A DNA stretch of 64,000 nucleotides, taken from NCBI GenBank assembly GCA_035235625.1, contig CP141150.1, forward strand, positions 27,172,756-27,236,755, read 5' to 3'. This document shows positions 6,545 to 64,000 of the stretch, piece after piece; positions within the stretch are counted from its first letter, which is position 1, and each line of letters opens with the position of its first letter. This stretch comes from Saururus chinensis (lineage: Eukaryota > Streptophyta > Magnoliopsida > Piperales > Saururaceae). The notes under the pieces were generated by a model. It was not told the DNA's origin, searched no databases, and saw only the letters and a program-made list of their open reading frames with translations. Both the position numbers and the translations under genes were made by a program.

Positions 6545-6607
6545 CTCTCTAACTCTGTCTGCTTCCCAAATTTCTCCCTCTTTGGACTCTCTTATACAAA
6601 ATCCTCT
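6545..6607 (-). other. PHT1: Probable PHT1 5' leader, start of coding exon
   Basis: On the minus strand a pyrimidine-rich run followed by GGTCAG ends at 6608. This fits a splice acceptor, so the coding exon would begin at 6607 with a 63-nt leader before the ATG. PHT1 genes often have an intron in the 5' leader. The junction is predicted from sequence only. Confidence 0.4.
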
Positions 6608-6809
6608 CTGACCAAATAAAAGAAAGGTCAACATCAGAGACACAATTATTTTTCACAATAAAATAACCTTAGAAGTATAATATAATAAAAAAATTATTAT
6701 ATTTTAATTTATATATTAAAAAATATGTGCTCGACACAAAGTAAGTTCTCGAGGAAAATATAATATATATAAAAAATTATTATGTTCTGGATGCATGTAT
6801 GCATGTGGT

Positions 6810-20621: not shown

Positions 20622-20720
20622 TCATAAACGCGCAACATAGGAGTTTGCTTGTGTCACGTATCTCACCCATCGGTATGGATTATATGTCTTGGACTTCTTA
20701 GCAATTTGTAAATATCTCAC
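20622..20720 (-). CDS. AP4M: AP4M exon 13 (last)
   Basis: Residues 420-451 and the TGA stop. Begins VRYLQIAKKSKTYNPYRWVR and ends VARL, the usual C-terminus of plant AP-4 mu. Confidence 0.95.
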   Translation of the reverse strand: MRYLQIAKKSKTYNPYRWVRYVTQANSYVARL

Positions 20721-23700
20721 CTGCATCCATATGAATTGAAATTGCTTAAAGAATCATAACTGTACCAGCTGAAGTTTCAGGAACAGAAACATACATGATT
20801 CTCCAGTCTATAGTTGCCAATATCATACTCCCTCTGTCCCACATTAATAGCTCCATTTGGTTTTTCAAAATTAACTAGTTTTAATTCATTTTGAAAAACC
20901 AAATGGAGCTAATAAGGTAGAACGGAGGGAGTATATTCACAAAGAATTTCACATAATTTCAACTCACTCTACTCGCATAATTTCAAATAGAGCTATTAAT
21001 ATAAGACAGAGGGAGTATAGCTTATAATGGTAAATATAATTGGTAGACCAATACCAAAAGATTACAAACATGGACAATTTCGATTCAAAAGATAGCTGCT
21101 AATGAAATTATTTCAGCAGAAGAGATCAAAATTGTAGTAGTTGATTTTAGAAGAGCGGAAATGCCAGCAGATGAGAAGAGGAGTGAAAAGGCCTAACAAG
21201 AACAAGATTATGAAAAATTTGAAAAGGCAAACGAGTAAAAGATGAGGGAAAGAATAAGTCATAATTTCAAAGTAATAATTAATAGTAATTTGTTTAAGCA
21301 TTATTTAATCTTAATAGCATTGTAAATTTTCGCAATTTAACTTTGCAGGGCCATAAACAGGAGAAATAGTTGATGAAAATTTAGAAAATTAATAGTTTTA
21401 TATTAGTATGACAAAAAAAAGATTAATTAGCTAAATTGCATACCATAAAGAGTATACATAATAAGAAAAAAATCTTTATCTTTATGCCCAACCAAGATTG
21501 ACTGGGAATTTGACAAAGTTAAGCTCTAAACAGGCAATGAACCAAAAGGGGAATCCCTAAAATATAACAGTAATATTGGGAACCATATTAATTTTGTGGT
21601 GACATCAAAGTTTAATGTTAAATCATAAATATCTAATAGTGGCCTAATTCTGAAACTACTCAAATTTGAAATCTAAGTGATTGTATGTTCATACTTGGAA
21701 AAATTCAAAGCTATAATGAAAACTTTGTTTTCAAAGAACTTCATTTTTTATATTAGATAAATGAAAATATGAAATCATCACTTTCTAGAATAGCAATTTT
21801 TTTATATAAGAATTACAGTTTTGAAAAAGTATATGATGCGATAAAATGTAATTAACATATACTGGGAACTCAAGAAATATAATTTTTAGGTCAGCTGTAG
21901 GCAGCTTCTAGAACAAAGGAATGAGCTTTTCTAGTTAAAAAGAGCCCTGTATGCATATAAACCACGGTTACTTTTATATATTTATTCAAATATTAATCCT
22001 AATTTGGTAGATAAAATCCTCGTTTGTCACATCTTGGATTTATAGCTTCTTACCATAAATGTTTGCATCATATGTATTTAATTAGTACAAATATACCCTG
22101 GGGCAATATTTATGGTTGCTGGTTTAGTTTCAATTCTAATTTATTATTCTTAAGGTCAATAGAAGCACCTTTTCATGTTCTATATAAGCTAAAAATCTGG
22201 CTCCACAAGCACATATTCTGTTTACCAACAATTGGATGCCAATACATCAGTAGATCTCCAAAAATACATGCAAACCAACTTGGGACCCATCATCATTTTA
22301 ATGTTTAGAGTGAAATAACAAGTTTTATATCAAACAATTTAGGGTAAAGGCAGAAGCAGTCAAGCTCAAATGCTCAATGTTTTGTATGGAATTCAACAAA
22401 GGCAAGCAATTAATGACGGAATATAGTTGGGCACGAAGCATAACTGGAGAGTCAAATTGAACTCCTGGGAAACAAAGGTAACTCATTTCACATGTACCAA
22501 AAAGACCAAGGCACAATGGACCATCCTTAATGTTCTAATTGAAGTGAAGGAACAGGGGGGCCCAATAAGATTATGAACTCCAGAAAGTTTTATCGAACAT
22601 ATGATATATTCAAAATTGAGTTATTATAAGGAAATGATAACGAATCAAATTCATACAACTGTCCAATCCGCCAGCATTTAGGTGGAGGAAGGAGAGAGGG
22701 CATAAGCAGAAGAAGAGTGAAGGAATGTTAGGAAGTGGGGAAGAAATCAAGAGTCTAGAGAGAGAAGAGAGGAAAATGATTAGAATAAGAGAGAAAATAT
22801 TAAGGCAACTCCAAACAATACACCTTTTGTTCCACTAATCAATAAGGAAAATTCATCTAATTATCCAAAAATGGCTTCCGTATGTTGACTCTTGAAAAAA
22901 AAATGATGTATCTCTATCATAATGTAAGTTATCTATTGAAGAAGAAATATTTTTTATTTTTCTAAAAATAATGATGGCATTTTAATCTTCACGGATCATG
23001 GCTGTTGGGGAAATAATATCCAAAAATGGCTCATGCATCATAATGTTCCAAAAAATGCCCAATATTCTTCTCCACAATGTAATACATTTTGTTTAGAGTC
23101 CCGTTGCTATGCATTGGGCACCTTGGGGCAGCACGATGCAGAGTTTGTTATATCCAGCCACCCCGTAAAACACATGGTCCGTCAGATGACAGCTCACAAT
23201 GCACCCTGGCACATATTCAAAATATGAACCAAGGTGCACACTTAAAACTTTTTCCTTTCATTTTAGAGATGACAAAAGAGTAAGAAACTGACAAACACAT
23301 TAAAAAATATTCCCTCCATCTCATATTAATAGCTACATTTCGAAAAATAGTAGTTTTTATCGAATGATGAAACCCATATCTAAGAGATGAGAAAATAAGG
23401 TTATAATACTCTTTTTTAAGAGCCTAACAACTTAAATTGAACAAAATGGAGCTATTACAATGGAACAAACATTTTTGCCAAATGGAGCTATTAATTTAAG
23501 ACGGAGGGAGTAACATATTTTTTCAATGTTAGGTATTCATCTTGTCCCCACGAAATGCTAGATACCAAGAAGGATGTCGATAAAAACAAGGGACTTACAC
23601 ATGCTAATGACTACTCAAATTGGATGTTAAAAATTGCTATCCATGCTCCAGTTGAGATTCCCAATCTTTCATAGATCTCTTCTTTTGGACCAACTGAGAC

Positions 23701-26700
23701 CCACTGAGAATTGGCATCCCTTCTTTCTAATTATAAGCAATTTCGGCATTATCTAAAAAAAATTGGCCATAGAATTAAGTATATTAGAAATATATAAGGA
23801 AATAATCTGTCTCTAACTACATTAGCAAACATTAAATTGTATTTGGCCATAGAATTGCTCTAGTGCACGCTCTTCTGCCCCAAAAAACCCTGCTCTTGGC
23901 TGGGCTCCCTCCTGCTGTGCCCCTTGCTCTGCCTGCATCTGCTCCCTTGTCTACCGGTCCAGCCCATCCTACTAAAGATTCCCCTGATCAGTATGATGCC
24001 TCTCCTCCCTATTACTCTTCCCATTATCTCCGTTTTCATCTATTTTTCATTCTCTTCGTGCATTTCAGTCCTAGAATGAAGTGTCTGCCAATCCAATTGG
24101 TAGAGGGTGATACAGGAGTTAGATGCACCACATAAGGGTGGCACTTGGACTTGGTATCTCTCCCTCCTGGTAAGCATGCTATTGGTTGTAAAAAGGTCTC
24201 CAAAATTAAAACACAGCCAAACAGATGTCTTGAATGGTGTAGGCTAGTTGTCAAAGGATTTGCTCAGAAGTATGGGATTGACTATGAGACTTTTGCTTCA
24301 GTAGCCAAAATGGCTACAGTTCGTACCATCATCTATATTGCCTTAGCATGTTAGTGGCCCTTGCATCAGACGAATGTGAAGAATGCATTCTGAACAGTTA
24401 TCTTGATGAAGGGTGTACATGAAGCCTCCTCTTGATCTTCCACACAAGCAAGTTTGTCGGCTGTGTCCTGCCTTATACGGTCTCAAATAGGCACCTAGGG
24501 GCTTGGTTTGAGAAGTTCAGTGCAGCCATATTATATTTGGGATTCTCCTCATGGTCATATCCTTCTTTTGGGATTCTACTGCTCATGATTCAGCCTTGTT
24601 CCCTAGGGATTCTCCTCATGGTCGTATTCTTCTTTTGCAATATGAGGATGATATGATTATTACAAGTGAGTACACCGAAAAAAATCTCTCTTAAGGCTCA
24701 GCTTCAGGAGCTATTTGAAATTATGGATCTGGATTTTTTGAGGTATTTTTTGGACATAGAGGTGTCATACTCACCTAGGGGCTATTTGCTGTCTCAATCA
24801 AAGTATACTAACGACATTATTGCTCATTCAAGTTTGATTTACTCTAGGCGAGTTGAAAGTCCTATGGAAGTCAACCTAAACCTAAATTTCACTGAGGGTG
24901 GGGTCCTCCTTTGTATAATCCTACATGCTACCGGGAGGTAGTTGGGTCTGTGTATCTGATTATTACTCGGCCGTACATTCAGCATGCTATTTATGTTGTA
25001 AAACAGTTCTTTGCACCTCAATCTACCAATTGTGCTGTTGTCCTTCGCATTCTTTATGTATGGGGCACTTTGCACATGAACTTGCTTCTTTCGTCTTCCT
25101 CTAATCTTGTTTGGAGAGCCAATTCTGATGCTGACTGGGCAGGTGATGACACCTCAAATCTACTAAAGATCAATGTGTTTTCTTGACCAATTCTCTTGTC
25201 TCTTGGAAGAGCAAGAAGTAAGATTATGTCACCCATTCTACCACTACAGCAGAATACCGGGCTATGACTACTACTGTTGTTGAGGTTGTGTAGCTTAGAT
25301 GGCCTTTTGCATATATGGGTGTTTCTCTTAATGGTCATACCCTCATATATTGTGATAGTAAGAGTGCCGTTCAGACCCACAACAATATGTTTCATGAGCA
25401 CGCAAAGCATATTGAGATTGATTGTCACATTGGGTGCCACCACCTACATGCTACTACTCTAACATTTACATTCAGTCCTCTCATCAGTTGTCTGACTTCT
25501 TCACAAAGCCTCATATTGTGGCCCCCTTCGGGCAAACTCTCTATGTTAGAGTTGGTGGAGGGGGGTTTTCTTTTTTCTTCAAGTGTTTTAGTATTGTAAT
25601 TTTTGTTTATAGAAGGAAAATTAGTCACAAATGTAATCTTATAATCTGGTCGGTTCACCCTTCATGTTAAGTATGGGCATATATGTCTTGCGTAATTGGC
25701 ATCCTGTCCTCGATTAGAGGCTGGAGCGACCCTTTCTTGTGTTTCACACTTCATTATTGAATAATACAGCGTTTCTATTTCTCTCAAACCCAAGTTCTCT
25801 TTTTTTTGAAAAGAGAACCTTAGTTATCAACATTCTATCATTAGCTACAGCAAACTTTGTACCACATATATAATGCACATATATAATCCATCCAATGGAG
25901 TAAGGACGAGGATGTTTTATCACTTTCAGTTGTAGTTTGTCAACTACCCCCTTTTGCTGTGATGTTCTCAGCATCAATGATGACTTTACAAACTCTTTGA
26001 TTTACACTTCCCTTTGTTAAAAAATATCGTGTCTTTGACTAGGAGTGATCTGCTTGGGAATTAACATAAGTTTCCTTGCAATCATGTTAAGAGGATGCTC
26101 TTCACATGAAAGACCACTATTTCCTATAATTTCGTCAGTTTCCATATCATTATCTTCTTCAGGCTCATTAAAACCTTCAGCCTCCCCATGTGTGACAACT
26201 ACTGCAGGTTTGTTTCCCTTTCTCAAGGGGCAGTTGCTAGAAATATGGCCTGGGCATTGACACTTGTAGCAAATGGTTGAGCTAGTAGGATAGGCCTAAG
26301 GGTTAGACTAAGAAGAAGAGGCAGTGGCGATACTTTTTTGCAATGGTTTTTCTGGTTTCATTTTTTCTTTCTTGTTGGCTGCAATAGTTTCAATAGGAAC
26401 TCTAAACATGTACTGAGAGGGAGCACTGAAGTTCATTCTGGCTGAAGAATATGGCTTTACCCCAAACTTCTCAACTTGCAACTCTACCCTTCTGGCCATT
26501 TGGATTGCCTATGAGAGAGTGAAAACTGGGTGCAAGGTGAACTTTTTCTCGATTTGTGGTTTCAATCCTGCAACGAATCGAGAGACTAATGGGCTGTTTG
26601 GGTGTGGAATTCTCCAAGGATTCCGCCACGATTTCGTCATAATTAAGTGGAATTGTGGTTGGATATAGAAGTTGCGTGGAATTAAAAATTCCAGCAGAAG

Positions 26701-29700
26701 AAAGATGTTTCAATTCTGACAAATCACCAAATATCTTCATGAGGTGATTCCATCAATTCAGGTTCCCAACCCCTTGTTTATATTTTCCAACTGCTACCCC
26801 TCATATCGATTTGAGCCTTGAGAAGCTTCCCACATGAGTGGGCCCCACTTAAAAAGTTCAAGATAACCTACCCATATGGGGTCTTATTTGATAGGGCTCA
26901 TCGATACAAGTGTAATAATACCAAAAACACGCAAATCCAAGTTCAAGAGAAAAGGTTATTAAAAGTTTGTGAAATGCATTGGAAGTTTCATTGGAATTTA
27001 TCCTAAAATTACCAAACTCAATCCTGATTCAATGCTAAATTGATGGAATTAATTCAAAATTTTTTTAATTCTGTTTCTAAATAATTCCAGACCCAAACAG
27101 CCCCTAATTTTTGCTCAGATTCATTCACATCATTTCTAGCCACTATTTTTTACAATTCAGCTGTGTAGTCAGCCACTCTTCTAACACCGTGCATGCACTC
27201 CTGAAACTATCTAAACAACACTTATTCAAAGGTAGCAGGTAAGAACCTATCCCTCAGCAACTTCTTTATTCGCATCCTTGACATGATAGGATGCCTCCCT
27301 TGATGCAATCTGCTGGTTTGAACTTGATTCCACCAAGCAGCTTCTCCTCTTTCCAATTTACAGGCAACTAATTTCACCCTCATACCTTCCGGTAGTTCTA
27401 GACATTCAAAATAATTTTCTACTTCATATTCCCAACACAAATATCTTTCAACTTGCATATTACATTCAAAACTAGGTAAATCCAGTTTGGGTTGAAACCG
27501 ATAGAAGTGTTAATTCTCACCCCTTTGCTGCTGGAATTGAGGGATTTGGTTCCCTCTTCTAGGTGGTCGAAATGGGTCAGTTCCTAGTTCATCTTCACTG
27601 TTCTCCTCAGCAATCTCTTGGGGAATGTTTGCATTAGCCAAAGGAACATTTGCTCTTTGAAAAAAGTTCAAATCTGGGCCTTCCGCAAATTGCAGATCTG
27701 GCTCCTGATTTTGCAGAGGCGCCAGATTTTGACCAGCAGCACCATTTCTTCTACTTTCCATACACTTGCAATGGTGGACGAGCTGCATTTTGCCAAAGAT
27801 GAAGGTGTTGCATCTGCTGAAGTTGTTGCTGGGTCTAATGTTGCAATTGCAGCAGTTGAGCTGAGGTCTGCTGTTGTAATTGCAGCAGCTGGGCCAAAAG
27901 TTGTCGAAGATCCATCTCTTCTGTGTTGCTAGCCGCCATAGAAGGAAGCTTTCCAAGCTCTAATACCAATCTGATGTAACCAAGATCAACTCCCACAACA
28001 TAGACAGAAAAAAATCGATCTGAGAATAAATCTGGAACTCTTTTATACAAAATTGAGAGGAAAGAAATGATTACAAAGTTCCAATCCAAGAACTATCTCT
28101 TAATCCCCAGAGATTACAAGTTTGTGCTGAATCCACAACACCAGAATACACTCAAATCCATGAGCAGAACTCGAGCTAAGCTCATAGAACAATCTTCTTC
28201 AATTTTGAAATTCAAAAACTCCCACTAACAACTTATCTCCCCCCTTTTAAAGACTTGGGCAGGAAGACAGACTCAAAAGACTGCATTACCCTTACTTACA
28301 AAGGCTGACTTAAGACTAGATAAGTGGATTGACTAAACTGACCCTACCAAAGAACATAACAGAATGACTTATTAGTCATTTCCCATACCACCCCTGGTGC
28401 CTATACCAACTGTTCGATGAAGTTACTGACATTTAAGTCAGCCAGCAGCAGCAACTGTTTGACGAAATGCCTAACTCCCAACTACTAACCCACTTCTGTC
28501 CTACTGAATTCAGTTTCCATCGGGGAGAGAGAGAGAGAGAGAAGAAAAGGTTCAATCACCAAATACTAATTTTAGCAAGAAACTAATACGAACATTGCCT
28601 ACTCCTTACAAACTATAAACTCAATTACTTAAAAAGAGTACAGACCAAGTTGATGCCCAACAAGTCAATTTACGTAACCCTTTTAACAATTACTACACCA
28701 TTGTCTAGAACCACTTAGTTAAATAAATAAAAATCCAGTCAAATCTAAACCATCTTACATCTGTGTAAACAAAAACTTGTCTCCATTATATAGGCAACAG
28801 ATGCTTTCATGCCTATAAGATACCTCTCAACCGTGACCTCAATTACATTCTATGCAAGTACTCAAAATACAAATTATTGTATAAGCTCTAATTACTGAAA
28901 CAGCTAAGGGATAAAAATTGTACCCCTGAGCATTCTTATGGAAGTCTTCCGATTTCTAAAATTCATGTATCTGTTAACAAACGCTGCATGCATTCACTAA
29001 AGCTAATTTTCCCATCAACTTGTAATTTAGAAAAGAAATACTCTAAGCCTTTTTTGCTGCCCAATGTACAAACTGCACCTCAGACAGGCTGCACTGTGCA
29101 ATTCCTGGCTATGGTGCACTTTCCCAGCCAATTCAGCATGCTGGTGTACAGATGGACTGGCATGGATTCGACCATACAGCAAAACTAAGAACAGGCCAGA
29201 CTGCAGCACAGCTTACAAACAGTTTCAATTGCGTCCAGTGAATGACAATAGGGTAAGCTCATTCTACAATGCAGAACAGGCATACCAGAATTATGAGCAT
29301 GAGTATTGCATGGCTATTCTTTTAACTTGAATTTCAAATATAGCTAACCTTGCCATAACCTTATGGCAGACGGTATCCAGTAATGTTTCCCTCTTCTACA
29401 AAAAACTATCATATACTCCAACGAAGAAGTCCAACTTAACTATGACAACAAGTAACAGAAACAAAAGGTTAATTGAAAACGCGAATAAACATCTCACCTG
29501 AAGCCTTGAAGCATTGTACATTGGTATTGTAAAACTCATGTTTACTGGTCCTGCCTCCTTGTTAATATTAGCTGTTATAAAAAGACTAAAAAATTAATCC
29601 ACAGTAACACAAACAAAGAAATGAGTTTAACATTTGATCATGCGTTAATATGATAATTTATTCTAAAATATTTTTTCCTATTTATCTCCATGAGATTAAT

Positions 29701-41700: not shown

Positions 41701-44700
41701 AAGATTGCCAATGGGGATGAAAACTAACATATACCAAATCCCCTACTTGAAACTCCCGATCTAACAGTGTTGTAAACCCTAAGGCTTACACAAATTAACA
41801 ACAGAGAAAGTAGAGGAATAGAAGAGGAAAGCCTTTTTTAATAGATGGCTTTAACAGAGACGAGAGGAGGCAAGGAGAAGGCCGACTGAGAGGAAGGAAG
41901 ATGATGAAAGGCTAAGTTTTTCCTTGAATTCCAAAGAGGGCAGTCACCCCTCACATATACTAGAGTCTTGGCAACCAATTAGGCCTTTTATTAGGAAACT
42001 ACTACTCACATAATCAATTCCTAAACTTTTAAATGTAAATTGCCTAATAAATAAACTGTTTAATGCATAACTTCCCTAGCAATATAAAAGAAACTTCCTA
42101 ATATAGATTATTCATAACAATTTGGTAGGCCCAAGGCAAAGGGGAGAGGGTCAAGAGAAAAGATGGAACGGTTATGGATAAAGATTTGGGAAATGGTTAT
42201 GGTAATGGAATAGGTTATACCGCAACTGTATCGTTCCGTTGGCAGCCCTAGGTGGGTGCCAGTGAAGGAGCGGATCTGGACTGGGCTGCGCTGGATCTGT
42301 CAGATCTGGACAGGATCAGAGTGGATCTGGGCGGGGGGGCGCCGGATCGGAGCAGATGTGGACTGGGCGGTGCCGGATCGGTTAGATCTGGACGGGATCA
42401 AAGTATATCGGGACGGGGCAGCGCCGGATCAGAGCAGGGCAGGTCCGGTTGCGTGGATCTGAAGAGGGAGGAGGTGAACAGAGCAGGAGGCCGGCAGGCA
42501 GAGCGAGAGGAAGCTTCTAGTGGGAAGGGAAACTGGCTCCGTCTCATATTAATAGCTCCATTTGGAAAAATAGTGATTTTTATTGGATGGTGAAACCCAT
42601 AGCTAAGAGAATGGAAAATAACTTTTTGAGATGCTTTATTAGGTGCCCAACCACTTAAATTGATCCGAATAGAGCTATTAATATGGGACAAAATTCTTTT
42701 CCAAACAGAGCTATTAATATAGGACAAAGGAAGTAATTTCCAAGTCATCTTGGGCCATCTTTTTTTCCTTCTAGATGTATCCACAAGCCACCAATCACAT
42801 CGCTTGATGGGTGTTGTTTGCAATATCCTATAAACATGAGTGAACAATCACAAAGGGCTTCTCTCAATTTCTCATAACCACGCCCACTCGGAAGTACTCC
42901 CTGTTATAGCCATTTCTAATAAAAATACTACTAGTGCTCTCACTCATCCATGTTACCAACCTTATCTCTGTGATACTCATCTACATGGCTTTCAAATAAA
43001 AACATTTGATAGATGGTAAAATAGGAATGTGAGAGAAAGAGAGGTTTATGGGGGGACAAGAGAAAGAGTAATTTTTAAATTTTCAATTGCTCAATGTCTC
43101 CTATAATTTAGAATCTCAACACTACTTAAAACCCTTTTAAAACTCGTGATAAAATTCAAACACCAAAAAACAAAAACTTCTAATCATATTAAGTAATTTC
43201 ATAAAGAAGTTACTGAGTCCTAATTGGCCACAAAGACTCCTAGATGACATTCTAACAATATACAATTACATTAAACTTTAATAAAATCAACTAATCAGCT
43301 ATAAGCATTCTAATTAAGGACTAAATTTTGAGAGAATATTTTGACCTGCAAAATTCATTATACCCTTCAATTTAAGCTTTCTTTTGCATGTATCAAATTG
43401 AGTACATATCATAATCATAATCAAAATCAAGAAGTGACTTTTCCAAACAATTTGAGATAGCCAAATTGGATTTTACACTAGCTAGTTTTGTGCTAACTCT
43501 TTCGCAAGAGATAGCATAGTCATCTTGCTTATTAACTCCATCCAAGTCCTCTTAGGTCTCCATCTACCTCACTTGGACTTCTCCATTTGCACAAATCTTC
43601 CTAGGGGACATCCCTTGGTCTCCTTTGAACATACCCAAACCAATGCAACCCACACTTGCTAAGCTTCTCCCCCAAATGTGCTACTCCTACGTTCTCACAA
43701 ATATACTCATTTCTACTCCTATCCCTCTTAGTTATCCCACACATCCACCTTAGCATCCTCATTTTGGCTACATTTAGTTTATCTATATGACTTTTCTTAG
43801 AGGCCCAACATTGAGCCATGGAGTATTACACACCCAAATATTGTCATATAGAATTTACCTTTGAGCTTATTTGGGATGCACCTATCACAATACACTCCCC
43901 AACATGGCTCTCCACTTTGCGCATCCCACATTTAATCTATGTACCACACCACTATCTATTTCTTGTGTATAACGGAGCTTAAATAGCATAATTGCTCACA
44001 TCTTGACACTTCTTGCCCAGACAAAGTTACATATAGTTCTACCTTCCATATAGATGAATTCCATATAATCCGTCTTAGTTCTACTTAGTCTAAAACCTTA
44101 TGATTCTAAGGCATCCCTCCACAGGTCCACATTTCTAGCTTAGCATTTAATCATACTTTAGTCTCATGAGTTAAAACTACATCATCCACCAAAAAAAATG
44201 GTCCAAGGTACCTTATCTTGGATATATATAGTTAATTCATCCATAACTAATGCAAAAAGATACAAGTTTAAGATTGATCTTTGATAAAGGCCTACAGTAA
44301 CCGGGAACTCTCTAGTTTTTCCCCCTATTGCTATTACACTCGTCATTACCCCAATCAATTCGAGCATAAATACAAAAACTAAATCTCACCCCCTTCAGTT
44401 TACAAAATTTTCTTTTGCCTCCATCAAGTTCATACAATAATCAAGAAAATATCATCAAACAGGTTCAATACAAATGTCATAAAAAATTATAAAAAAGCCA
44501 ACTAAAATTATACTAGATCCTCACACAAACAATTTATTAGACTAGATACTATGGGGTCACATATCAAATTGGGATTCCTGAAACATATACTTTCTTGTAC
44601 AGATAGCAATGGAATTATAAATTTAAGTATGCCCCTTAGTTAGTATTAGGAGCTTGTAACCTTGATGTATATCCAGGAAGAGGCATGCCCACCAAAACTG

Positions 44701-47700
44701 TGTTTGCTGTTATACTCGAGTCGAAATCAGCACGTATCTTTATAAGAACTTCAGCCTAAAAGGCATACAAAATCAGTAATCAATGAATTGATTTAACCAT
44801 GTCCACAATTCTATTCTGAAAAAGTATACCCTGATGCAGACATATGAAGACAATGTATCACAAACCTTGAATCCTCCAGCTTCTTCAATAAGTGTAGTTA
44901 TTAAGAATGGAGGTTTGAACTCTCGAGTCATTCGGTAGTTCATGACAGAAAATTCTCCATCTGAGGGAACCTGCAGAACAAAGTCAGAGATTAAGCTCAA
45001 ATTGCAGGGGTGAGAAAATTTCATTTGACTTGGGAGCAGGAATCTAGTTTAAAATAGAATTTGAAGAATCCCTTGAAATACAGTGTCTAGGAAGATGTCA
45101 CAAGCCCTACTGGCAAGATAACACCCACAAGACAGAGCCCAGCATACAGCCACCAGTATGAACAATATATTCCACCATATAAATTAATGGAAATAAACAA
45201 CAATGTCAACTCCAGCCACCCTAATTTTGAGTCCTGAATGCATGATCAATACCCACTTACCAAAGTCAAAGTCCGGTCCAAATCAAAACTGTCAAGATGG
45301 ACAGACTCATGGAAGTTACAATCATCAAGGATTACAGCTCCACCTCCAGTAGAACTACCATAATCTGCTGACAGAACACAAAGACATACAAAACTCAGTT
45401 GTCATTAGATAGTACAAAAATATTTAACTCTTAAAATGACCAAGAGAAGTGCCATCTTAGCAATGTAATGGTAAATCAGTACAAGCAGCGTGAAGAGACG
45501 ATAATAAGCATGACAATATATTATAGGATTATTTAACTCTTAAAATGACCAAGAGAAGTGCCATCTTAGCAATGTAATGGTAAATCAGTACAAGCAGCGT
45601 GAAGAGACGATAATAAGCATGACAATATATTATAGGATTCCATTTTAGTTCTGATGTGTTTGTTCCAACAGTTTATGTAAGTGTCATTGTTCCAGAAAAA
45701 CTCACCAAAAGGATGCTAATGTTACACTTCTTTCCATTTCACAACATTTTAAACTTAAAAATCAATCAATCAAATAGCATTGAAGATGTCGACTGTAGAG
45801 TGACTAACTCAAAGTCTTGATTTAGATGAAGCTTCTTATGAAGGCAACTGCTAGTAATACAATATGCTTCCTCAAGTAAATCATGAAAAAATAAAAATTT
45901 CTAGTTACAAGGGTACCAAATGTATGGCCTCCTCCTGTGCCAATGGAGAGATTTTCATTCAGAGCTAGACGAATTTCCGGATTTCCTGTCAGATAACTTT
46001 TCATCTGGATGGTTCCATCTATCTCAGACGTGAGGATGTAACCCTGCAAAAATAGATACCAAATGATGATCCAAGAAAAAAATTTCTTATCTTCAATTAT
46101 TTTTTAACTGTGTTAAACTGCGTACCCATAAAATATGAACCCAGACGTGTTTCCATATAGAAGCTGTCCGATCATGTAGGGACCACATGATCTGCTGGCT
46201 TCTAAATGAAAACACATACTGCAGCACACATTTTGGGGCACGAGGTTTCTCATTTTTCATAAAAAGATTATTGAAAAAGAAGGGAAAACTGAGGATTACT
46301 CACACTAGAGCTAAATGTAACACTAATCTTCTCAATGACATCGACAAAAATTTCTTCTCTTCTCCGTCCACCAGGATCATTGGCCACAACAGATTTTGTA
46401 ACGGCTGTACCTGGCATCCTTTTGGTTCCTTGCTGAGACAAATTTTATTGTTAACATAAATATTAGAAAGTTGCAAAACAGAAAAATTAATTCGTCAAAA
46501 CAATAATTTGAGAAAATAATGAATGCAATTCATACCATAAACATGGCCGCAGGACCAAGAGCAGGTAAAATTGCAGCATCAATGACAATAGGCTCGTTAA
46601 ATACATAAGACTTCAAAGTCTCAGTAGATGTAGTAAGCGGATAGCCAAAGTCCTGGAGATGAAAACAACAAAAAATTACACACATCAATAAATTATCAGA
46701 TACTATGAAATGACACTCACAAGATCACGGATTTTTTCTAACGCAAACTGCAAATAAAATGTCTAATAATTTTATAGATAAATCAACAATGATGTAAAAG
46801 ACATAAGCAGCAAGCAACTACCTAACAACAAGCTTCTAAGAGGAATACCTGAATAACCACTAAAAGATGGCAACAAAAAAACTACTTCAACAATGCAATG
46901 ACTTAAGCATCTCAACAATATTTGACCAATTTATCCAACTCTAGCAGAGGTTACTGATTGCTGATATTAAAGGCAAAGAGAAACCTTAAATTTAAATATT
47001 GACAATTACTAATTGAAATGAGGGGCAACAAAACATTAAAAAGAAAATACTTACAATGACTTCGTCAAGCAGCTCATATACTAGTACAAAGTTCTTCCTT
47101 AACGAATCTTCATTGAGAACACCAAGGTAGTCTTTAGTTACTCGTGCAATTCTTTGCAGAAGTTCCAAAACAAGGGAAGGTGACACATTTACTCTCGTAG
47201 TTGCAACAAATAGCAATCCAGCAACCTTCACATGTATATAATTGACGCCATCCACATTCTATTTTAAATTGAGAAAAAAAAAACATCAGCACATTCTAAA
47301 GATATTATTATGATTAAATGCCAGTGGTTTCTAAGTCCAACCACATCGTTTTAAAATCCAGCACGGCCAGTTCGATTAAACCAGTTTTTCTGGGTAGTTC
47401 AAATCTGGGCCTTTTGAGATAGACTGCCCTTGACTCAGCCAGTTTAATTGGCAGCCCAGCAAGGTCAGGTCAACCAAGTCCATCTAGAGAATTATAAGAA
47501 AAACTCCTTTCTTCCTTCAAAGACCTAGATGTCTGCCTCCTCTTCTATCCCTGCCTGACAGCAACACTGCCATCCTTATCTCTCCCCCCAGACCCTCTTT
47601 CCTTCTTTACCCTTCTCATTCTCCCTATCCCTTTTCTTCTTCCTCCTCCTATTCCCTCATCCATGCTCTTCCTCATCTTCCACCCGGCCCATCAACAATG

Positions 47701-50700
47701 CAGGCTGGTTTATACGATAAAGTAATATTTCAAAATAATTTGGGGAAGATCGGTTTCAGCTACTTAGAGGTCAAGGACGAGAGAGCAATTTCTGATACCT
47801 GAGTTTGAAATACAAAAAAAATTGATAATAGGCTAACGGGGAATACGGCAGTAGATAGGTAGTTTAGTATGACCGAGACAGAGTAGTTGTGTTGTGCATT
47901 TGAAGAGGAAGGCCTGGACAATACAGATGTAAAGAGGGTTGATGGAAAAGGTGAGTAAATTTAAAAAGGGCAAGATGGAGTACCAGAAAAAGAGAAAATT
48001 AAGATAGAAGAGGCATACCTTGCTCACCTGACATATAAGATAACCCACCAAAATATGAATAATGCCAAGCCTTCTTCACTCTCACGTTGTAATAGATAAA
48101 GAACCAATAACTAGGAGTAAAAGAAGGGACTAGGCATATATATATAGCCTCATGGTGACCCTTCTCATCAAAGGGGCACCAACAAATAGCCTGCCACACC
48201 CCTTAATAACCAACCAAATTAATTCCGAATTTCGGCTTTAATTAACGAAAACCATGATTTCTCATTTTCTTTCATGAATTTTGGATTTTCAATGGGGTCC
48301 ACATGTGTGGACACATAAGAAGATTTATTAATGAGAAGAGAGTGGGAAGAAGACAGGAAAAAGTAAAGATGGATATTGGGAATGCTCAGAAACACAATTA
48401 CTAAAGAAGTATTAAGCATAATCAATGCTTAAGTAGATTTCGAACCACGACCTTTTATTTATAAAGGCATGGAGTGAACCGAGCTATTACTAAAGTATGA
48501 TTGCTACTACCCACATCTAAATTTATGTTTAAAGAATTACTTAAATAGTTAAATGTAAAAAAAGTATGGTACTATTTGACTATTTAACTCGCTAATATCA
48601 CTATCTGCGAAGTAACTTAACATGGAGTCATTCATCCACTTAATAAAATCCAATTGCCATACAATGGATTGCCCTTTGTAACTAAAATTACTGTTTAATA
48701 AAATAAAAATTCCTGACTGACCCCTTTGGGCATTACTGAGCATCCTCCATTTCCCACTCCCCCCCCCCCCCCCTCTCTCCCCCCACCCAAAACACAACCA
48801 AAAACCTCCCTGACCCTTACCCCGGGCCAATATCGGTTGACTACCAGTCAGCTTGATTGACCTGGCCCTACAAATGAACTGCAGCAATGGTCAGGGCAGT
48901 ATTAAAACTTTGTCTGTGCACATGAGACATCGGACAATAGATGGAGAGCATCATATACAATTTTAAATTGCTTAATTTGGTGGACAACAAGAATGTAACA
49001 CTCCTAAAGATTTAAAAAAAAATAGAATTTGAAGACAGAGAAAAATTTTGTATGTATCTTCTCGGATTGTCCAATCAGAGCCAGTACTACATTATCATAG
49101 AAACAAACAGTAAAATCCTAGACATGCATCTGAATTTTATATGTTAACATAAAACATGGAAAAAAAGACACAACAAATACCTACAAAGACAGGTGGTGCC
49201 TCATCTCCTTCATCACCTTTCCAAAATTTCACATTGCGAAAAAATATCTCCGCACTTCCTTTTTGCACCTCACCACGATCTACATTGATTTGTAAATTTA
49301 TGGTCAGCTCTTGATGCTATAGACGCATATACAGAGTTAAATAAGGTTCAGCTAACACACTAAAAAACAAATACAAAAAATTCTCAACAGAAAAATCATT
49401 CAAAGAACTCAGGTGAATGAATTAAGAAGTCATTCTCATCATGATATGTTTTATACTAGTTATATAGAGTATACAAAACACTAAATGTATCTCACCAAAC
49501 ATCTCTACTATTTTACTTGAACTAACAACCTCGGATCAAAGTGATATGAATTTTGATGTAACAAGCCAAAATATGACTAGAAAAACCAAAACTAGAAAAC
49601 AAATATTCATAAATCATTAAAAGGTTACAATAGTAAAAAACTGACATTTCAGATGTCATGATCAACACCACATCTCAAATATCTGGATGCAGCAACATAA
49701 AGCCTATTCCACCATCCAGCCGTCAAATGTCCTGCTGGATGGCTGAATCCTATGTCTGACAGCACCCCTAATAACTAGGATATTGTGCTGTGCTGAATTG
49801 ATAGAACTCACAGAACTAGTTACTGAAGACATTTTAAGTTAATTGTCCTTAATATCTTGCGAGAGCATGTGAAAAAACAAATACTTTCTTTATCAAACAG
49901 AAAATGAGAAATTAAACATCCCCTTGAAGAGTGTTATAAAATCCCATAGCAGATTACAATGCACAGAGGCAGCATCCCAATTCAATGATCAATTTTATAA
50001 TGATACAGTTGACACCCCTGCAGATACTTGAAAGTCCCAGCTAGACTTTTCACATTGAAGAACCCATCTCAATATCAATTTAGAATGATTAAAATAGTTT
50101 CTCCAATTTATCAGACAAATTGAACTTTTGATAAAATTCACTCATGTGAATCATAGGATATTTAACACGGGAAAAAATTCATGGAACAAAGTAAATTAAT
50201 TCAAGTGATTAAAGACAATAGAGAAAAAGTAACAAGGCATTATAGAATTCACGCATAAAAATTAAACAAACTTAGTGAAAATACTCAGAATAATAATTGC
50301 AACATTCAAACTCTATGAAAAATAATTTATTTTCCCTTTTTGATCTGTATTTGTATGATGCATTATTTAATTTATCGTCAGACCAATGAACCAGGGAAAA
50401 AAAAAGAGAACTAAAAAAATCAAAAGTAACAGCAAGAACCAAGACAATATGTTTGATTTCTTTTTTGGGGGGGGGCGAGGGTGGGGGAGCAACCCATATG
50501 AAAGAACCATCGGATACCAATTAAAGAAAACTCATACAAGCTTTTATTTATAAAATATAAAGTTTTGCAGGTTTGCTTCAATGTTATATCGTTGCAAATT
50601 CATACTCACAAATTTTAAGGGCAATGTAGACAGCAAAACACGGAACTAACTCATAAATTCCTATCATGGAGTTAATGGTTTAGTGAAGAAATCACAACCA

Positions 50701-51982
50701 ACATGATACGACCAGCAAAATAGAAAAAAATCTATGAAACTTCTGAAGCAAAAACAAGAAATCATATGTTCAATAAACTTAAGAAAAAAACGGTTTATAC
50801 ATAGATTACTAGGAAATTTCATTAAGGCACAATAAAGACCTTCCGAAAGGAACTCATCCATTTACTTCACCATAATACCAAGATGACAAATACATGAGAA
50901 TGAAAGCAAAAACATAGAACCACAAGACAAGCGTAAATAATTAAAACAAATTAATGAAAAACTACATTAAAAAAAGTGGTAAACGTTATAACAGCTGAAG
51001 ATTAATTTTTCCTAGGTGTTTTATAAAGCATTAGCAGAATTATGTAATCATACATACATTGTGCATTCATAGAATTTGGCCATCAAACTTATAGCGATGG
51101 GCACATAATAAATGATAAAGCAATAGAAAAGCATAAAAGCACTCACACAAGCTACGCATCCAAAAATAAGAAATCCATGAAAATTTTCATCCAGACAAAG
51201 AAACATGAAAATTTTGAAACCAGAGTGTTGAAAAACATGCCACATACTGAGACCAGCTTGTTAAACACATTTACCAAAACCATTTCAAATGGCAGTCAAC
51301 AAATATGATGAAATCAATATAACTAACATAGAAAACTTACGAAAATTCAAAAGCAAAATAAAAGAAAATTTGCAAGATTTGATACTCACTTTGCAATGAT
51401 AAATAACGGTTCTACAAAAGACATGTACAGAAAAACTCATTTCGAGATGTATACAGGAAAGACTTGTGATGGAGAAGTATCACAAAAAGCATTTATATTG
51501 ACAACCTACCAAAAAGATGGGGGGAAAAACCTGAAAACTCAACGAAATTTTCTTTTTGTTTGCAGGCATAGGAAAGCATTCCTGCCAGATTCAGATTTGA
51601 TACAGAAAAATTCGTCGTCATAATTACACAAAGAACTAATATACTTCCTTATCAAAATAAGAAGACCAACCCAAAACATATTTTCGGTTTACATTTTCAA
51701 CAGATTCTACGTACTATAATGATCAAGGTACAAATAAAAACACAGAAGGAGAGAAAAAATAGATGTGTGTAAACAACAAGTAGGCAAACATGATTGAACA
51801 ACTTCTTCAGTACCAATAGACCAGAATTCATCCATTTAAAATACGTCTGTAAATGCACTGACCAGACATTAAGCAAGATACAGACCGGATCAATGATAAT
51901 CAAAACCAGCAGAACATGACTTACAGTCCCTGAAGACAATATTGTCTCCTCTCTGCGACAGCACGAAGAACTGCGAGATCAT
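20622..51982 (-). CDS. AP4M: AP-4 adaptor complex subunit mu (13 exons)
   Basis: Medium (mu) subunit of the AP-4 adaptor, which selects tyrosine-signal cargo such as vacuolar sorting receptors at the trans-Golgi network. Exons run 51982-51925, 49279-49185, 47258-47055, 46652-46536, 46432-46304, 46043-45917, 45364-45261, 44970-44866, 44755-44661, 36908-36821, 36713-36653, 29571-29498 and 20720-20622. Every intron is GT/AG, the phases agree, and the sum is 1,356 nt, or 451 aa plus stop, the length I recall for the Arabidopsis protein. It starts MISQFFVLSQRGDNIVFRDY, has a longin-like N-terminal half (about 1-140) and a mu homology domain (about 165-451), and ends NSYVARL. Introns of 7.8, 7.1 and 8.8 kb are full of transposon remains. 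No break is visible, so the gene looks intact. Confidence 0.95.
20828..20931. mobile_element. Stowaway-like MITE, near-perfect hairpin
   Basis: 104 bp from CTCCCTCTGTCCCACATTAA to AACGGAGGGAG, flanked by TA on both sides. The arms pair almost throughout (AAACCAAATGGAGCTAAT). A further right-end copy stops at 21016, so a second element may overlap or enclose this one. It lies in AP4M intron 12. Confidence 0.8.
21017..23309. other. AP4M intron 12, part without recognised element
   Basis: AT-rich intron sequence. The small open frames here show no family resemblance. A GC-richer stretch at 23.08-23.22 kb has no recognisable coding sense. Confidence 0.4.
23310..23510. mobile_element. Stowaway-like MITE
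   Basis: 201 bp from TTCCCTCCATCTCATATTAA to TTAAGACGGAGGGAG, with a TA duplication at both ends. The interior matches the copy at 42.5 kb (TTTTTATCGAATGATGAAAC). Confidence 0.8.
23850..25800 (+). mobile_element. Copia retrotransposon fossil (RT-RNase H part)
   Basis: A plus-strand remnant in AP4M intron 12, opposite to the gene. It reads in pieces as the Copia reverse transcriptase (PPGKHAIGC, then RLVVKGFAQKYGIDYETFA) and the RNase H/tail region with DADWAGD and DSKSAVQTHN. A purine tract GGTGGAGGGGGG (25553-25564) followed by AT-rich sequence may mark the start of a 3' LTR. Gag, protease and integrase were not seen. It is clearly broken in several places and old. Confidence 0.8.
26010..27970 (-). 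mobile_element. Gypsy retrotransposon fossil (gag to protease edge)
   Basis: A minus-strand remnant. It shows a Gln-rich gag start near 27.8-27.95 kb, the retrotransposon gag core (VKLVACKLERGEAAWWNQV, 27.2-27.46 kb), a knuckle-proximal region, and the stretch leading to protease near 26.0-26.3 kb. A primer-site-like TTGGTATTAGAGC lies at its 5' edge next to an LTR-like sequence. A 513-bp MITE sits inside the gag part. The element is broken and most of pol is missing. Confidence 0.75.
26591..27103. mobile_element. 513-bp MITE nested in the Gypsy fossil
   Basis: Terminal inverted repeats of about 21 bp (GGGCTGTTTGGGT then STGGAATT) with one mismatch, flanked by a CTAAT direct repeat (26586-26590 and 27104-27108). 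The interior has no coding sense. The ends resemble PIF/Harbinger- or hAT-type MITEs, but a 5-bp target repeat suits neither classical size well, so the family is left open. Confidence 0.8.
27972..28500 (-). mobile_element. LTR of the Gypsy fossil (outer edge approximate)
   Basis: It starts TGATGTAACC next to the primer-site-like sequence. Its middle (GCTGAATCCACAACACC, then CTCAAATCC) parallels the solo LTR at 40657-41160, so both belong to one family. The far edge near 28.5 kb is not sharp. Confidence 0.5.
28501..29497. other. AP4M intron 12, proximal part
   Basis: Holds a (GA)n run at about 28524-28541 and otherwise nothing that can be supported. Confidence 0.4.
29498..29571 (-). CDS. AP4M: AP4M exon 12
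   Basis: Residues 395-419 (NINKEAGPVNMSFTIPMYNA). The split codon gives Ala where the Arabidopsis protein, as I recall it, has Gly. It is isolated by 7-kb and 9-kb introns. Confidence 0.9.
29690..30170 (+). mobile_element. Possible LTR fragment hosting the next element
   Basis: It contains TATATAAGGAGGGAAG near 30033 followed by a CT-rich leader-like stretch, as in a plus-strand LTR. It is interrupted at GAGAC by the Gypsy insertion and seems to resume after 32639. The family cannot be named. Confidence 0.35.
30176..32634 (-). mobile_element. Short Gypsy retrotransposon with target duplication
   Basis: Flanked by GAGAC on both sides (30171-30175, 32635-32639), so its ends are well set at 2,459 bp, far below an intact Gypsy element. 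On the minus strand are gag pieces (31.2-32.26 kb), a protease-like part (30.4-30.75 kb) and a reverse transcriptase start with SQYSSPMHLVRKKDGMWRFC near 30.3 kb. A primer-site-like TGGTATTAAAGCC adjoins its LTR. It is broken and cannot move on its own. It lies in AP4M intron 11 on the same strand as the gene. Confidence 0.8.
32291..32634 (-). mobile_element. LTR of the 30.2-32.6 kb Gypsy element
   Basis: 344 bp from TGTTATGTTC to GAACACAACA, with a (GA)n stretch near 32434-32451. The inner edge meets the primer-site-like sequence and the outer edge meets the GAGAC duplication. Confidence 0.7.
32640..34352. other. AP4M intron 11, decayed repeat sequence
   Basis: No gene. At 33.06-33.33 kb short words such as ATTTACATTTTAGGCA recur several times. 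At 33.33-33.5 kb a GGGTCCCACCCC stretch resembles LTR or leader sequence. Nothing can be assigned. Confidence 0.35.
34353..34816 (-). mobile_element. LTR-like sequence
   Basis: It runs from TGTTGAGAGG to GGCCATAACA. The right half (TAATAAACGGGCCTAAAC, then AACTTCTTTAATAAAGC) resembles the solo LTR at 35.48-35.83 kb. No matching flanking duplication was seen, so the borders are tentative. Confidence 0.4.
35280..35440. repeat. Degenerate minisatellite
   Basis: Repeats of GGGTATGGATAAAAATTGGG-like words with variants (AATGGGTATGG, GTGCGGGTAAAAATTGGGG). Simple decayed tandem sequence. Confidence 0.5.
35477..35829 (-). mobile_element. Solo LTR with GACTT target duplication
   Basis: 353 bp from TGATGTGAAC to TCCATAACA, flanked by GACTT at 35472-35476 and 35830-35834. 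No internal region adjoins it, so it is a solo LTR left by recombination. Similar right halves link it to the LTR-like pieces at 34.4 and 41.8 kb. Confidence 0.7.
35835..36652. other. AP4M intron 11, 5' part
   Basis: AT-rich intron sequence with no recognised element. Confidence 0.4.
36653..36713 (-). CDS. AP4M: AP4M exon 11
   Basis: Residues 375-394 plus one base (IVGGTIHTLRAKLTFSQESH). Short 107-bp intron before it, 7,081-bp intron after it. Confidence 0.93.
36821..36908 (-). CDS. AP4M: AP4M exon 10
   Basis: Residues 345-374 (RVSFELEPGAIGNTTDFKEA ... LEWGLKK). It completes the codon split at the end of exon 9. Confidence 0.93.
37491..37782 (+). mobile_element. TRIM-like miniature LTR element
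   Basis: Two related ~95-bp ends (37491-37589 and about 37692-37782) share GATATACATTGTTG and GAGGCAACT-like words. Directly after the first lies TGGTATCAGAG, matching the tRNA-iMet primer site. Just before the second lies a purine tract AAAAGGGGG. The first end is TG...CA. The flanks AATAT/AAAAT are a near-duplication. This is the layout of terminal-repeat retrotransposons in miniature. It has no coding capacity, and its diverged ends indicate age. Confidence 0.6.
38150..39450 (-). mobile_element. RTE-type LINE fragment
   Basis: Minus-strand reverse transcriptase remains. A stretch near 39.11-39.16 kb reads KGKAVGPDGIPIEV, the conserved RTE/BovB-type motif, and the RT C-terminal part follows to 38.2 kb. 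Several frame breaks and stops are present. No endonuclease domain was seen. It lies in AP4M intron 9 on the gene's strand. Confidence 0.7.
39451..40441. other. AP4M intron 9 stretch with short ACTAGTGGG-type repeats
   Basis: Mostly AT-rich. From 40245 to 40370 the words TTACCACACTAGTGG, GTGGGCGAG and close variants recur. A TATAAATAG lies at 40429-40437, directly before the LTR. This could be older LTR sequence. Confidence 0.4.
40442..42119 (-). mobile_element. Gypsy chromovirus fossil: LTR, integrase end, LTR
   Basis: Two same-direction LTRs (40442-41298, carrying a nested solo LTR, and 41768-42119) flank 0.47 kb that reads on the minus strand as the integrase C-terminus (MAYRLQLLEGSQVHPVFHVL) and a chromodomain-like end (EILVAWYDHSLEDASWLSEE). 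A purine-rich AGGCCAAGG stretch precedes the LTR on that strand. The outer flanks do not match, so the arrangement probably results from recombination. It is broken and most of the internal region is absent. It lies in AP4M intron 9. Confidence 0.75.
40657..41160 (-). mobile_element. Solo LTR nested in the 40.4-kb LTR
   Basis: 504 bp from TGGTGTGGC to CTCTACATCA with an ATTAG duplication on each side (40652-40656, 41161-41165). The undisturbed sister LTR at 41.8-42.1 kb shows the empty site. Its middle resembles the LTR at 28.0-28.5 kb, so it is the same family. Confidence 0.85.
42245..42530. repeat. GC-rich minisatellite
   Basis: Imperfect units built on GGATCTGGACGGGATC and GGGGCGGCGCCGGATCGGA. 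It gives long open frames in several phases through composition alone. It sits in AP4M intron 9. Confidence 0.65.
42537..42733. mobile_element. Stowaway-like MITE
   Basis: 197 bp from CTCCGTCTCATATTAATAGC to ATATAGGACAAAGGAAG, then TA. The interior matches the copies at 3.2 and 23.3 kb. Confidence 0.75.
42734..43329. other. AP4M intron 9 spacer
   Basis: AT-rich sequence with no recognised element or gene. Confidence 0.4.
43330..44380 (-). mobile_element. RTE-type LINE fragment, second copy
   Basis: The minus strand shows the RT C-terminal part: LFALVMDELTIYIQDKVPW near 44.2 kb (the catalytic region follows, worn), and KMRMLRWMCGITKRDRSRNE with WFGYVQRRPRDVP at 43.6-43.82 kb. Both are typical of plant RTE elements. 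It overlaps in content with the copy at 38.2-39.4 kb. Stops and frameshifts interrupt it. Confidence 0.8.
44661..44755 (-). CDS. AP4M: AP4M exon 9
   Basis: Residues 314-344 plus two bases (AEVLIKIRADFDSS ... MPLPGYTS). The 7,752-bp intron that follows is filled with transposon remains. Confidence 0.93.
44866..44970 (-). CDS. AP4M: AP4M exon 8
   Basis: Residues 279-313 (VPSDGEFSVMNYRMTREFKP), a hallmark of mu homology domains. Confidence 0.95.
45261..45364 (-). CDS. AP4M: AP4M exon 7
   Basis: Residues 244-278, with the conserved VILDDCNFHESV. Donor GTAAGT. Confidence 0.93.
45421..45638. repeat. Perfect 109-bp tandem duplication in AP4M intron 6
   Basis: The unit starting TATTTAACTCTTAAAATGAC occurs twice in a row without any difference seen. 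It lies inside the 552-bp intron between exons 6 and 7 and does not touch the splice sites. Confidence 0.95.
45917..46043 (-). CDS. AP4M: AP4M exon 6
   Basis: Residues 202-243 plus one base (GYILTSEIDGTIQMKSYLTG). Donor is GTACCC. A second GT 8 bases on would shift the frame, so GTACCC is the supported junction. Confidence 0.9.
46304..46432 (-). CDS. AP4M: AP4M exon 5
   Basis: Residues 159-201, including PGGRRREEIFVDVIEKISVT at the start of the mu homology domain. Confidence 0.93.
46536..46652 (-). CDS. AP4M: AP4M exon 4
   Basis: Residues 120-158 (DFGYPLTTSTETLKSYVFNE onward), the linker between the two domains. Donor GTATGA. Confidence 0.93.
47055..47258 (-). CDS. AP4M: AP4M exon 3
   Basis: Residues 52-119, the largest exon. 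Contains the conserved RVNVSPSLVLELLQRIARV and NFVLVYELLDEVI stretches of the longin-like half. Confidence 0.95.
47259..49184 (-). other. AP4M intron 2
   Basis: 1.9 kb. Holds a C-rich run at 48763-48785 and CT-rich sequence near 47.57-47.68 kb. No coding element was recognised. Confidence 0.6.
49185..49279 (-). CDS. AP4M: AP4M exon 2
   Basis: Residues 20-51 (YRGEVQKGSAEIFFRNVKFW and on to PPVF). Donor GTAGGT. Ends in phase 0. Confidence 0.93.
49280..51924 (-). other. AP4M intron 1
   Basis: 2.6 kb, AT-rich, with a G-run at 50465-50475. It appears free of recognisable transposons, unlike introns 9, 11 and 12. Confidence 0.6.
51925..51982 (-). CDS. AP4M: AP4M exon 1
   Basis: Start codon at 51982. 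Encodes residues 1-19 plus one base. Donor GTAAGT. Followed by a 2,645-bp intron. Confidence 0.95.
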
Positions 51983-53510: not shown

Positions 53511-53785
53511 GTAGTGTCCTTTGTGCCTGAAGTCCCATCAAAATATCTATCCAACGCAACTTAGATTTAATATTTGAAGAAGTGTATGAGAATATTTGTT
53601 GCCTTCTTTGGATAAGAAAAGACATATGTGAAGAAGTATATGAGTATTGCTTGTTGATATATGAGGCAATTGCTTAATCTAATTTTAGCCTCTTAGTTTT
53701 GAGACAATTGCTTAATTTAATATGAATTTAATCTATTGTTTATGAATCAAGTGAATAGAGATATTATTTCTAAGGTCATAATGCC

Positions 53786-55290: not shown

Positions 55291-55331
55291 GTAAAGATAT
55301 AATTAATCTATTTATTTACTCTCTATTTTAG

Positions 55332-57683: not shown

Positions 57684-57879
57684 TATTTGCGTTGTTTTAT
57701 ATTCTCCCCTTGTGTGTAATATATTTGATAAACATTTATAATGATGTTTGTTTTTATTCAATGATGTCAATATGCATGAAATGTGTGAAATGAAATGGAA
57801 CTTGTGGAATGGAACGTGTGGAATGCATGAACAGGGACAGGTGTTAAATTTAGTTTAAAATAGATATTTTAAAAAAAAT

Positions 57880-62016: not shown

Positions 62017-62056
62017 TAAACATGTAATCAATCTATTTATTTATTCTCTATTTTAG

Positions 62057-63918: not shown

Positions 63919-64000
63919 CATTTGCGTTGTTTTATGTTTATTTTAAACTAAATATTTTCTCCCATTGTGTGTAATATATTTTATATTTGTTTTTATTCGA

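Follow-up and report, generated by a model that had tools for sequence, protein, structure and literature searches.

Altogether our analysis favors, at a probability of about 0.85, a reading in which Saururus chinensis carries a complete AP4M gene whose introns have been enlarged by old transposons and whose exons are joined by conventional splicing, and in which, as a separate event, a family of PIF/Harbinger-type DNA transposons took up a stretch of that gene. The window, that is the whole stretch of 64,000 nucleotides analysed, contains this gene, which encodes the cargo-sorting protein AP-4 mu, on its minus strand. The gene model, the repeat blocks, the dispersed fragments, the ends of the elements that carry them and the target duplications beside those ends can be read directly in the DNA. 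The transposon family that bears AP4M pieces is an addition to the sequence-only reading from which we set out; comparable captures have been described from maize, rice and grapevine.

Results

The AP4M gene

A tblastn search of the window, with a plant AP4M protein as query, followed by reading of the exon boundaries, placed 13 minus-strand exons of AP4M from 51982 to 20622, a span of about 31,000 bases (Table 1). Joined together they form a coding sequence of 1,356 nt that specifies 451 amino acids, the frame is free of stops and frameshifts, and all 12 introns have GT/AG borders. These introns measure, in order, 2645, 1926, 402, 103, 260, 552, 290, 110, 7752, 107, 7081 and 8777 nt. The sequence-only reading had proposed the same 13-exon model with GT/AG throughout, and every coordinate in it was reproduced exactly, as were the two junctions it singled out (36653/29571 and 29498/20720), the introns 4 and 8 that it put near 100 bp (103 and 110 nt) and the 74-nt exon 12 lying between introns of 7,081 and 8,777 nt. 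Intron 10, at 107 nt, is short too. At its acceptor, exon 7 has the NAGNAG sequence CAGCAG; splicing at the alternative AG would add one alanine, and the resulting 452-residue form fits the sequence equally well.

The best match of the predicted protein in the PDB is human AP-4 mu-1, which aligns from end to end (residues 1-451, E 3.9e-76, 259.8 bits) and upholds the AP-4 mu identity assigned earlier; the next match, AP-1 mu-1, reaches 246.8 bits, a modest margin. Residues 182-451 contain the mu homology domain (Pfam Adap_comp_sub, PF00928; E 1.7e-75, 254.2 bits). The N-terminus scores 20.3 bits against the longin-like family Clat_adaptor_s (PF01217), for which the curated cut-off is 22.5, and this region aligns with mu chains in the PDB. 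A search for the AP-4 epsilon domain (PF14807) was uninformative, since it gave no match here and none in its 14 controls, and an Rfam search of the window returned no matches. In a protein search of the 516-Mb genome (11 contigs), the AP4M locus was the sole place with matches to all 13 exons together. Judged from these predictions, the AP4M gene is complete and is the only full-length copy found in the genome.

Table 1. Positions in the window of the AP4M exons, the long introns with their repeat blocks, and the stretch represented in dispersed fragments
Feature	Position	Strand	Remarks
Exon 1	51925..51982	-	58 nt, ATG at 51982
Exon 2	49185..49279	-	95 nt
Exon 3	47055..47258	-	204 nt
Exon 4	46536..46652	-	117 nt
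Exon 5	46304..46432	-	129 nt
Exon 6	45917..46043	-	127 nt
Exon 7	45261..45364	-	104 nt; 107 nt if other NAGNAG acceptor used
Exon 8	44866..44970	-	105 nt
Exon 9	44661..44755	-	95 nt
Exon 10	36821..36908	-	88 nt
Exon 11	36653..36713	-	61 nt
Exon 12	29498..29571	-	74 nt
Exon 13 including stop	20622..20720	-	99 nt
Intron 9	36909..44660	-	7,752 nt; genome search covered 36909-44449
Intron 9 repeat blocks (about)	38156-38268, 38280-39451, 40657-41160, 41159-41782, 41765-42121, 42537-42735, 43403-44356		genome copies
Intron 11	29572..36652	-	7,081 nt
Intron 11 repeat blocks (about)	30198-32636, 33067-33503, 34370-34817, 35477-35830		genome copies
Intron 12	20721..29497	-	8,777 nt
Intron 12 repeat blocks (about)	20825-20934 (hairpin), 23299-23512, 23889-25515, 28431-28524		genome copies
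Intron 12 retrotransposon-like block	25877-26590 + 27104-28421		split by nested 26591-27105 insert
Source stretch of fragments	44450..49881	.	start of intron 9 to intron 1
Fragment pieces	44450-44647, 44738-45290, 45117-45763, 45971-46224, 46653-47455, 48877-48968, 49128-49881		DNA matches

Repeat-filled introns

Dispersed repeats account for at least 12,171 of the 23,399 nt (52%) searched in introns 9, 11 and 12, in about 17 blocks: at least 3,903 of 7,541 nt in intron 9, 3,678 of 7,081 in intron 11 and 4,590 of 8,777 in intron 12. These figures are lower bounds, based on the best 40 candidates scored, with the unions and the block count made by hand. It had been suggested that the three introns hold at least a dozen element remains, a count that the genome copies sustain, and the broader claim of an intact AP4M stretched by transposon-filled introns finds support in the gene model, the PDB match and the repeat blocks. 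The retrotransposon-like part of intron 12 encodes, in gene-sense orientation, a gag-type zinc knuckle (E 9.4e-05), the single Pfam match above cut-off among 10 intron open reading frames; a zf-CGNR match lay below it (E 0.03), and 3 further intron frames had no Pfam match. In our reading, the 3' introns became long as ordinary transposons accumulated and nested within them.

The recorded blocks lie between 104 and 1,247 nt from the exon edges (304 and 1,247 nt for the two edges of intron 9, 822 and 626 nt for intron 11, 973 and 104 nt for intron 12), and a weak repeat at 37530-37782 is about 620 nt from exon 10. The piece at 44450-44647, if it were transposon DNA, would be 13 nt away from exon 9. 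Two sister mu genes, L039 and L040, each occupy less than 5 kb, and their matched parts are separated by about 1.5 kb at most; for a third, L038, the match was incomplete. Three other mu-domain matches (L041, L042, L043) were dropped, as tblastn aligned them with neither AP-1 mu nor AP4M.

Exon recognition

The donors of exons 10, 11 and 12 scored 9.2, 8.1 and 9.5 bits with an approximate plant splice matrix of rounded values, and are the top three of the 12, the next being 7.8. Decoy exons with both sites as strong as the real ones number 0 for exon 10, 2 for exon 12 and 19 for exon 11 (24 with a slightly looser criterion) across introns 9, 11 and 12, against means of 0.2, 1.6 and 37.3 in shuffled introns. 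Strong decoys are rare because the real splice sites are themselves strong, and the comparison of observed with shuffled introns gives no sign that decoys of exon 10 or exon 12 strength have been purged. At exon 11 strength, 4 of 60 shuffles had as few decoys as the observed 24, and the 226 acceptors fell below all 60 shuffles (mean 261.9); the antisense strand has fewer still (206), so this deficit is not a signal of the sense strand. Donors of exon 10 and exon 12 strength number 3 and 2 in sense and 8 and 8 in antisense, too few to build on. The sites of exon 11 are weaker, but 107 nt separate this exon from exon 10. Splice-signal strength showed no relation to intron length (Spearman -0.03 for donors and 0.12 for acceptors, n = 12), and we rejected such a link. 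The recursive-splicing motif YAG|GTRAG occurs once, in intron 12 near 24777, a raw count without a chance comparison, and was not found in introns 1, 2, 9 and 11.

How such exons are recognised amid so many repeats had been put forward as a real question. With the strongest donors, by the approximate matrix, at exons 10-12 and decoys of exon 10 or exon 12 strength about as rare as in shuffled sequence, the idea of a special problem here is not supported. The AP4M exons are probably spliced by conventional signals, namely the strong donors of exons 10-12, AT-rich flanks and the pairing of exons 10 and 11 across a short intron, and we infer from the gene model both this splicing and the expression of the gene. 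AP4M is then an ordinary test case for splicing across repeat-rich introns. As a separate observation, intron 12 and exon 13 begin alike (CAGGTGAGATGTTTA / CAGGTGAGATATTTA), and positions 29486-29500 (end of exon 12 and start of intron 12) and 20709-20723 (acceptor and start of exon 13) have CAGGTGAGATRTTTA in common; beyond the splice consensus this likeness is probably due to chance.

AP4M pieces elsewhere in the genome

Exon-sized matches on other chromosomes in the protein search were the first sign that parts of AP4M are dispersed. Protein and DNA searches of the genome place such pieces at 37 or more sites outside the gene, on 9 of the 11 contigs, where matches within 10 kb were merged and both the intron 2 repeat matches and two sister-gene rows at 40 and 48% identity were left out. 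The copies are 81-96% identical to the gene, introns included, and the intron sequence argues that they do not derive from mRNA. Exon sequence (from exons 2, 3, 6, 7 or 8) is present in 16 of the 19 loci that we examined (L021-L037, L044 and L045), and the remaining 3 have intron sequence only. The left edge of the intron 9 piece, at 44450, is common to most listed copies, and the right edge at 49881 recurs in the three loci that reach so far. Of exon 9, the copies contain no more than the first 18 nt (piece edge 44738), and exons 1, 4, 5 and 10-13 had no copy among the matches listed. Gene order is kept in L021, L024, L033, L034, L035 and L044, and mostly in L036; the pieces in L026 and L028 are out of order. 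Intron 6 of the gene contains an exact 110-bp tandem duplication (45421..45639) that is single in the examined copies spanning it, and which probably arose after capture.

Dispersed pieces were also found for the sister mu genes. Partial copies of L039 (C10:17389000-17398900), an AP-1/AP-2-type mu gene, mostly of its 3' 1.65 kb, occur at more than a dozen other places, and L040 has one dispersed partial copy (C9:3906831) and a short dispersed repeat. Two of the L039 copies (L007 and L008) had no PIF ends. Since the sister genes are dispersed as partial copies as well, AP4M does not appear to be a special target, and the matches indicate that dispersed gene pieces are common in this genome.

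The carrier elements

Elements bearing different AP4M pieces have in common 14-bp inverted ends of the type GGGTCYGTTTGTTT. Both ends were recognised, with 2 mismatches allowed, in 10 of the 19 examined loci, where they delimit complete elements of 2.8-5.2 kb with the AP4M pieces between them. Eight of these ten are flanked by identical 3-bp sequences: TTA in four (L030, L031, L032, L037), TAA in three (L021, L023, L028) and TCA in one (L025). In L024 the flank is offset by one A, and in L027 the flanks do not match. The other nine loci lack a recognised end pair, and in L022, L034 and L035 no carrier end was found; the window, too, contains no carrier end at 2 mismatches. PIF elements have an extended target preference, CWCTTAGWG, which several carrier flanks resemble.

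A 153-bp carrier end gave 42 matches in the genome from the best 40 of 212 candidates scored, 41 of them at least 92% identical and the other 83% identical. A match to the transposase family DDE_Tnp_4 lies 2.0-3.9 kb inside five of these 42 listed ends, the nearest being on the opposite strand each time; 0.15 such pairs are expected by chance from the 150 matches scored of 408 candidates, and 0.40 from all 408. On C8, two of the five ends point towards each other and have both of their transposase matches in common, and are thus not independent. In L045 a carrier end occurs together with the AP4M piece 44450-44636 and with part of a transposase (E 8e-12). Nine open reading frames from five carriers matched no transposase family in Pfam. 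Judging by the 14-bp inverted ends, the TTA/TAA duplications and the transposase matches in some apparent relatives, the carriers look like PIF/Harbinger DNA transposons, and we infer that a PIF transposase mobilised them. Two other kinds of carrier were considered and rejected: Helitrons, suggested by the lack of long shared inverted repeats around 16 fragment loci and refuted by the 14-bp ends and 3-bp duplications, and MULEs, as the common ends are 14-bp inverted sequences with 3-bp duplications. An element in L033 that bears AP4M exons 2, 3 and 6 also contains a sulfotransferase-domain piece (3634-3930, minus strand; E 3.6e-13), which means that the captures involved more than one gene.

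Two arrangements of the carriers deserve mention in their own right. Ends stand head to head in L025 (2912-3153, 14 bp apart) and at C2:38794366-38794732, reminiscent of the neighbouring insertions through which, as has been proposed (PMC8903248), the DNA between them is captured. At C8:1764146-1775000, in L029 and to its left, three carrier ends and two transposase matches form a local insertion cluster of about 11 kb.

Capture history

We envision a scenario in which a PIF/Harbinger-type family captured AP4M sequence corresponding to window positions 44450-49881, this stretch was then partly lost and rearranged, and its pieces spread to the 37 or more places described above. For three pieces the copies differ less from one another than from the gene: mean differences between gene and copy and between copies are 6.2% and 4.4% for the intron 6 piece (6 copies; ranges overlap), 4.8% and 4.2% for the exon 8 piece (4 copies; ranges overlap) and 5.0% and 3.2% for the exon 3 piece (3 copies). 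Bases that differ from the gene and are common to all copies number 8, 11 and 20, respectively. This pattern is what a single founding capture with later spread would leave, most clearly in the case of the exon 3 piece. One capture cannot explain everything, as the pieces of L026 and L028 are out of order, and a rearrangement or a second capture would also have occurred. The intron 9 piece behaves differently, with copies that differ from one another by 10.7% on average and by up to 16.7% (23 pairs) and from the gene by 7.6% (8 copies). This greater variation among copies may reflect an earlier capture, or the piece may be transposon DNA within the gene.

Across 24 exon pieces, the copies of which are not independent, we counted 23 silent codon changes and 47 amino-acid changes, and no stops. 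The ratio of silent to replacement changes gives no sign of constraint on the captured exons, which would thus be drifting while the donor AP4M stays intact.

Discussion

Enlargement of introns by transposons and capture of gene pieces by PIF-type elements are both known kinds of event, and AP4M offers a checkable example of these two forces acting on one gene. Genome-wide expansion of intron size has been surveyed in grapevine (PMC3058033); the likeness lies in the growth of spliceosomal introns and the difference in its genome-wide reach, compared with the one gene considered here. Pack-TYPE PIF/Harbinger elements, or Pack-PIFs, have been described in maize and rice (PMC8903248). The maize Zm-Pack-PIF elements share with our carriers terminal inverted repeats of about 15 nt, mostly TTA duplications, fragments of host genes and dozens of copies. 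They are proposed there to capture DNA by fusion of neighbouring insertions, a model to be set beside the carriers of L025, which stand head to head. The cargo differs: across the family here it reaches into exons 2, 3, 6, 7 and 8 of one gene and takes in 18 nt at the start of exon 9, compared with a 163-bp piece in the maize example, and we also note as a difference the 2.8-5.2 kb length of the complete elements. The grapevine PIF elements of Pifvine-3 have long matches to host exons and introns (PMC2528002); they show mostly TAA/TTA duplications and, in some cases, captured regions common to multiple copies, as we find, and have the cargo in the 5' region of transposase-bearing elements, whereas the nine reading frames from our five carriers gave no transposase. 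Mechanisms of capture are among the topics reviewed in PMC13317346.

A different origin for the scattered pieces would be as ordinary pseudogenes, left by segmental or retro-duplication, with the transposon ends beside them coincidental. The nine examined loci without an end pair, L022, L034 and L035 among them, would fit such an origin. However, the introns in the pieces exclude copies of mRNA, the 3-bp flanks match in eight of the ten loci that have both ends, and different AP4M pieces are bounded by the same terminal sequence. For the complete elements this origin is already contradicted, and for the fragments as a whole we regard it as scarcely credible. We give somewhat more room, while still thinking it unlikely, to the idea that the intron 9 piece at 44450-44647 is transposon sequence left in the gene and that only the other pieces were captured. 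The piece is found without other AP4M pieces in many of the listed places, lies beside a transposase fragment in L045 and varies more among its copies than the other pieces do, and in L028 its segment 44531-44647 departs from the order of the gene. Yet of the 42 best carrier-end matches just two (C4:29566710 and C4:24984290) have it directly inside them, which argues that it is not core to the family; the smaller distance from gene to copy (7.6%) than from copy to copy (10.7%) places the gene near the root; and the gene contains no element end. Moreover, the piece adjoins a carrier end and follows gene order in L021, L024, L033 and L044, and likewise in L036 apart from one small inverted piece. 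We favor the view that the intron 9 piece, too, was captured from AP4M.

Two further proposals concern the working of the gene. IBM2-type proteins let plants read through heterochromatic introns. It is conceivable, if improbable in our judgement, that the long introns impair AP4M: most transcripts would stop at poly(A) sites in the repeat-filled introns, and the full-length product would depend on an anti-termination system of the kind that these proteins provide. The length and repeat content of the introns are in keeping with such impairment, as are the gene-sense retrotransposon part with its zinc knuckle in intron 12 and the 6, 7 and 4 sense-strand AATAAA motifs of introns 9, 11 and 12, which are raw counts without a chance comparison. 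In rice, transposon-bearing heterochromatic introns and their read-through system have been described, and loss of OsIBM2 is reported to cause premature polyadenylation in such introns (PMC7145194). The likeness to the rice genes lies in intronic transposons within a functional-looking gene. Against impairment, the coding sequence is intact, without a stop or frameshift, as expected of a working gene, and we prefer the model of a complete AP4M read and spliced in the conventional manner. A far more remote prospect is that the dozens of transposon-borne pieces, through transcripts or small RNAs matching exons 2, 3, 6, 7 and 8 and introns, tune or silence AP4M or help to methylate its body; if so, the long introns and the captured copies would form one regulatory circuit.

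For practical purposes, the fragment loci are best annotated as cargo of transposons rather than as additional AP4M genes, and anyone who maps RNA-seq reads to exons 2, 3, 6, 7 and 8 has to reckon with near-identical copies.

Two other features of the window were recorded. Upstream of AP4M are two tandem copies of a Mutator-like element (53775-57703 and 60494-63938), 88-90% alike, with matches to MULE transposase; the first copy additionally has a SWIM zinc finger and an open frame of the plant mobile domain type. A long open frame without interruptions on the minus strand (4946-6652) encodes an MFS transporter (Sugar_tr, E 2.1e-52), which we take to resemble a plant phosphate transporter (PHT1).
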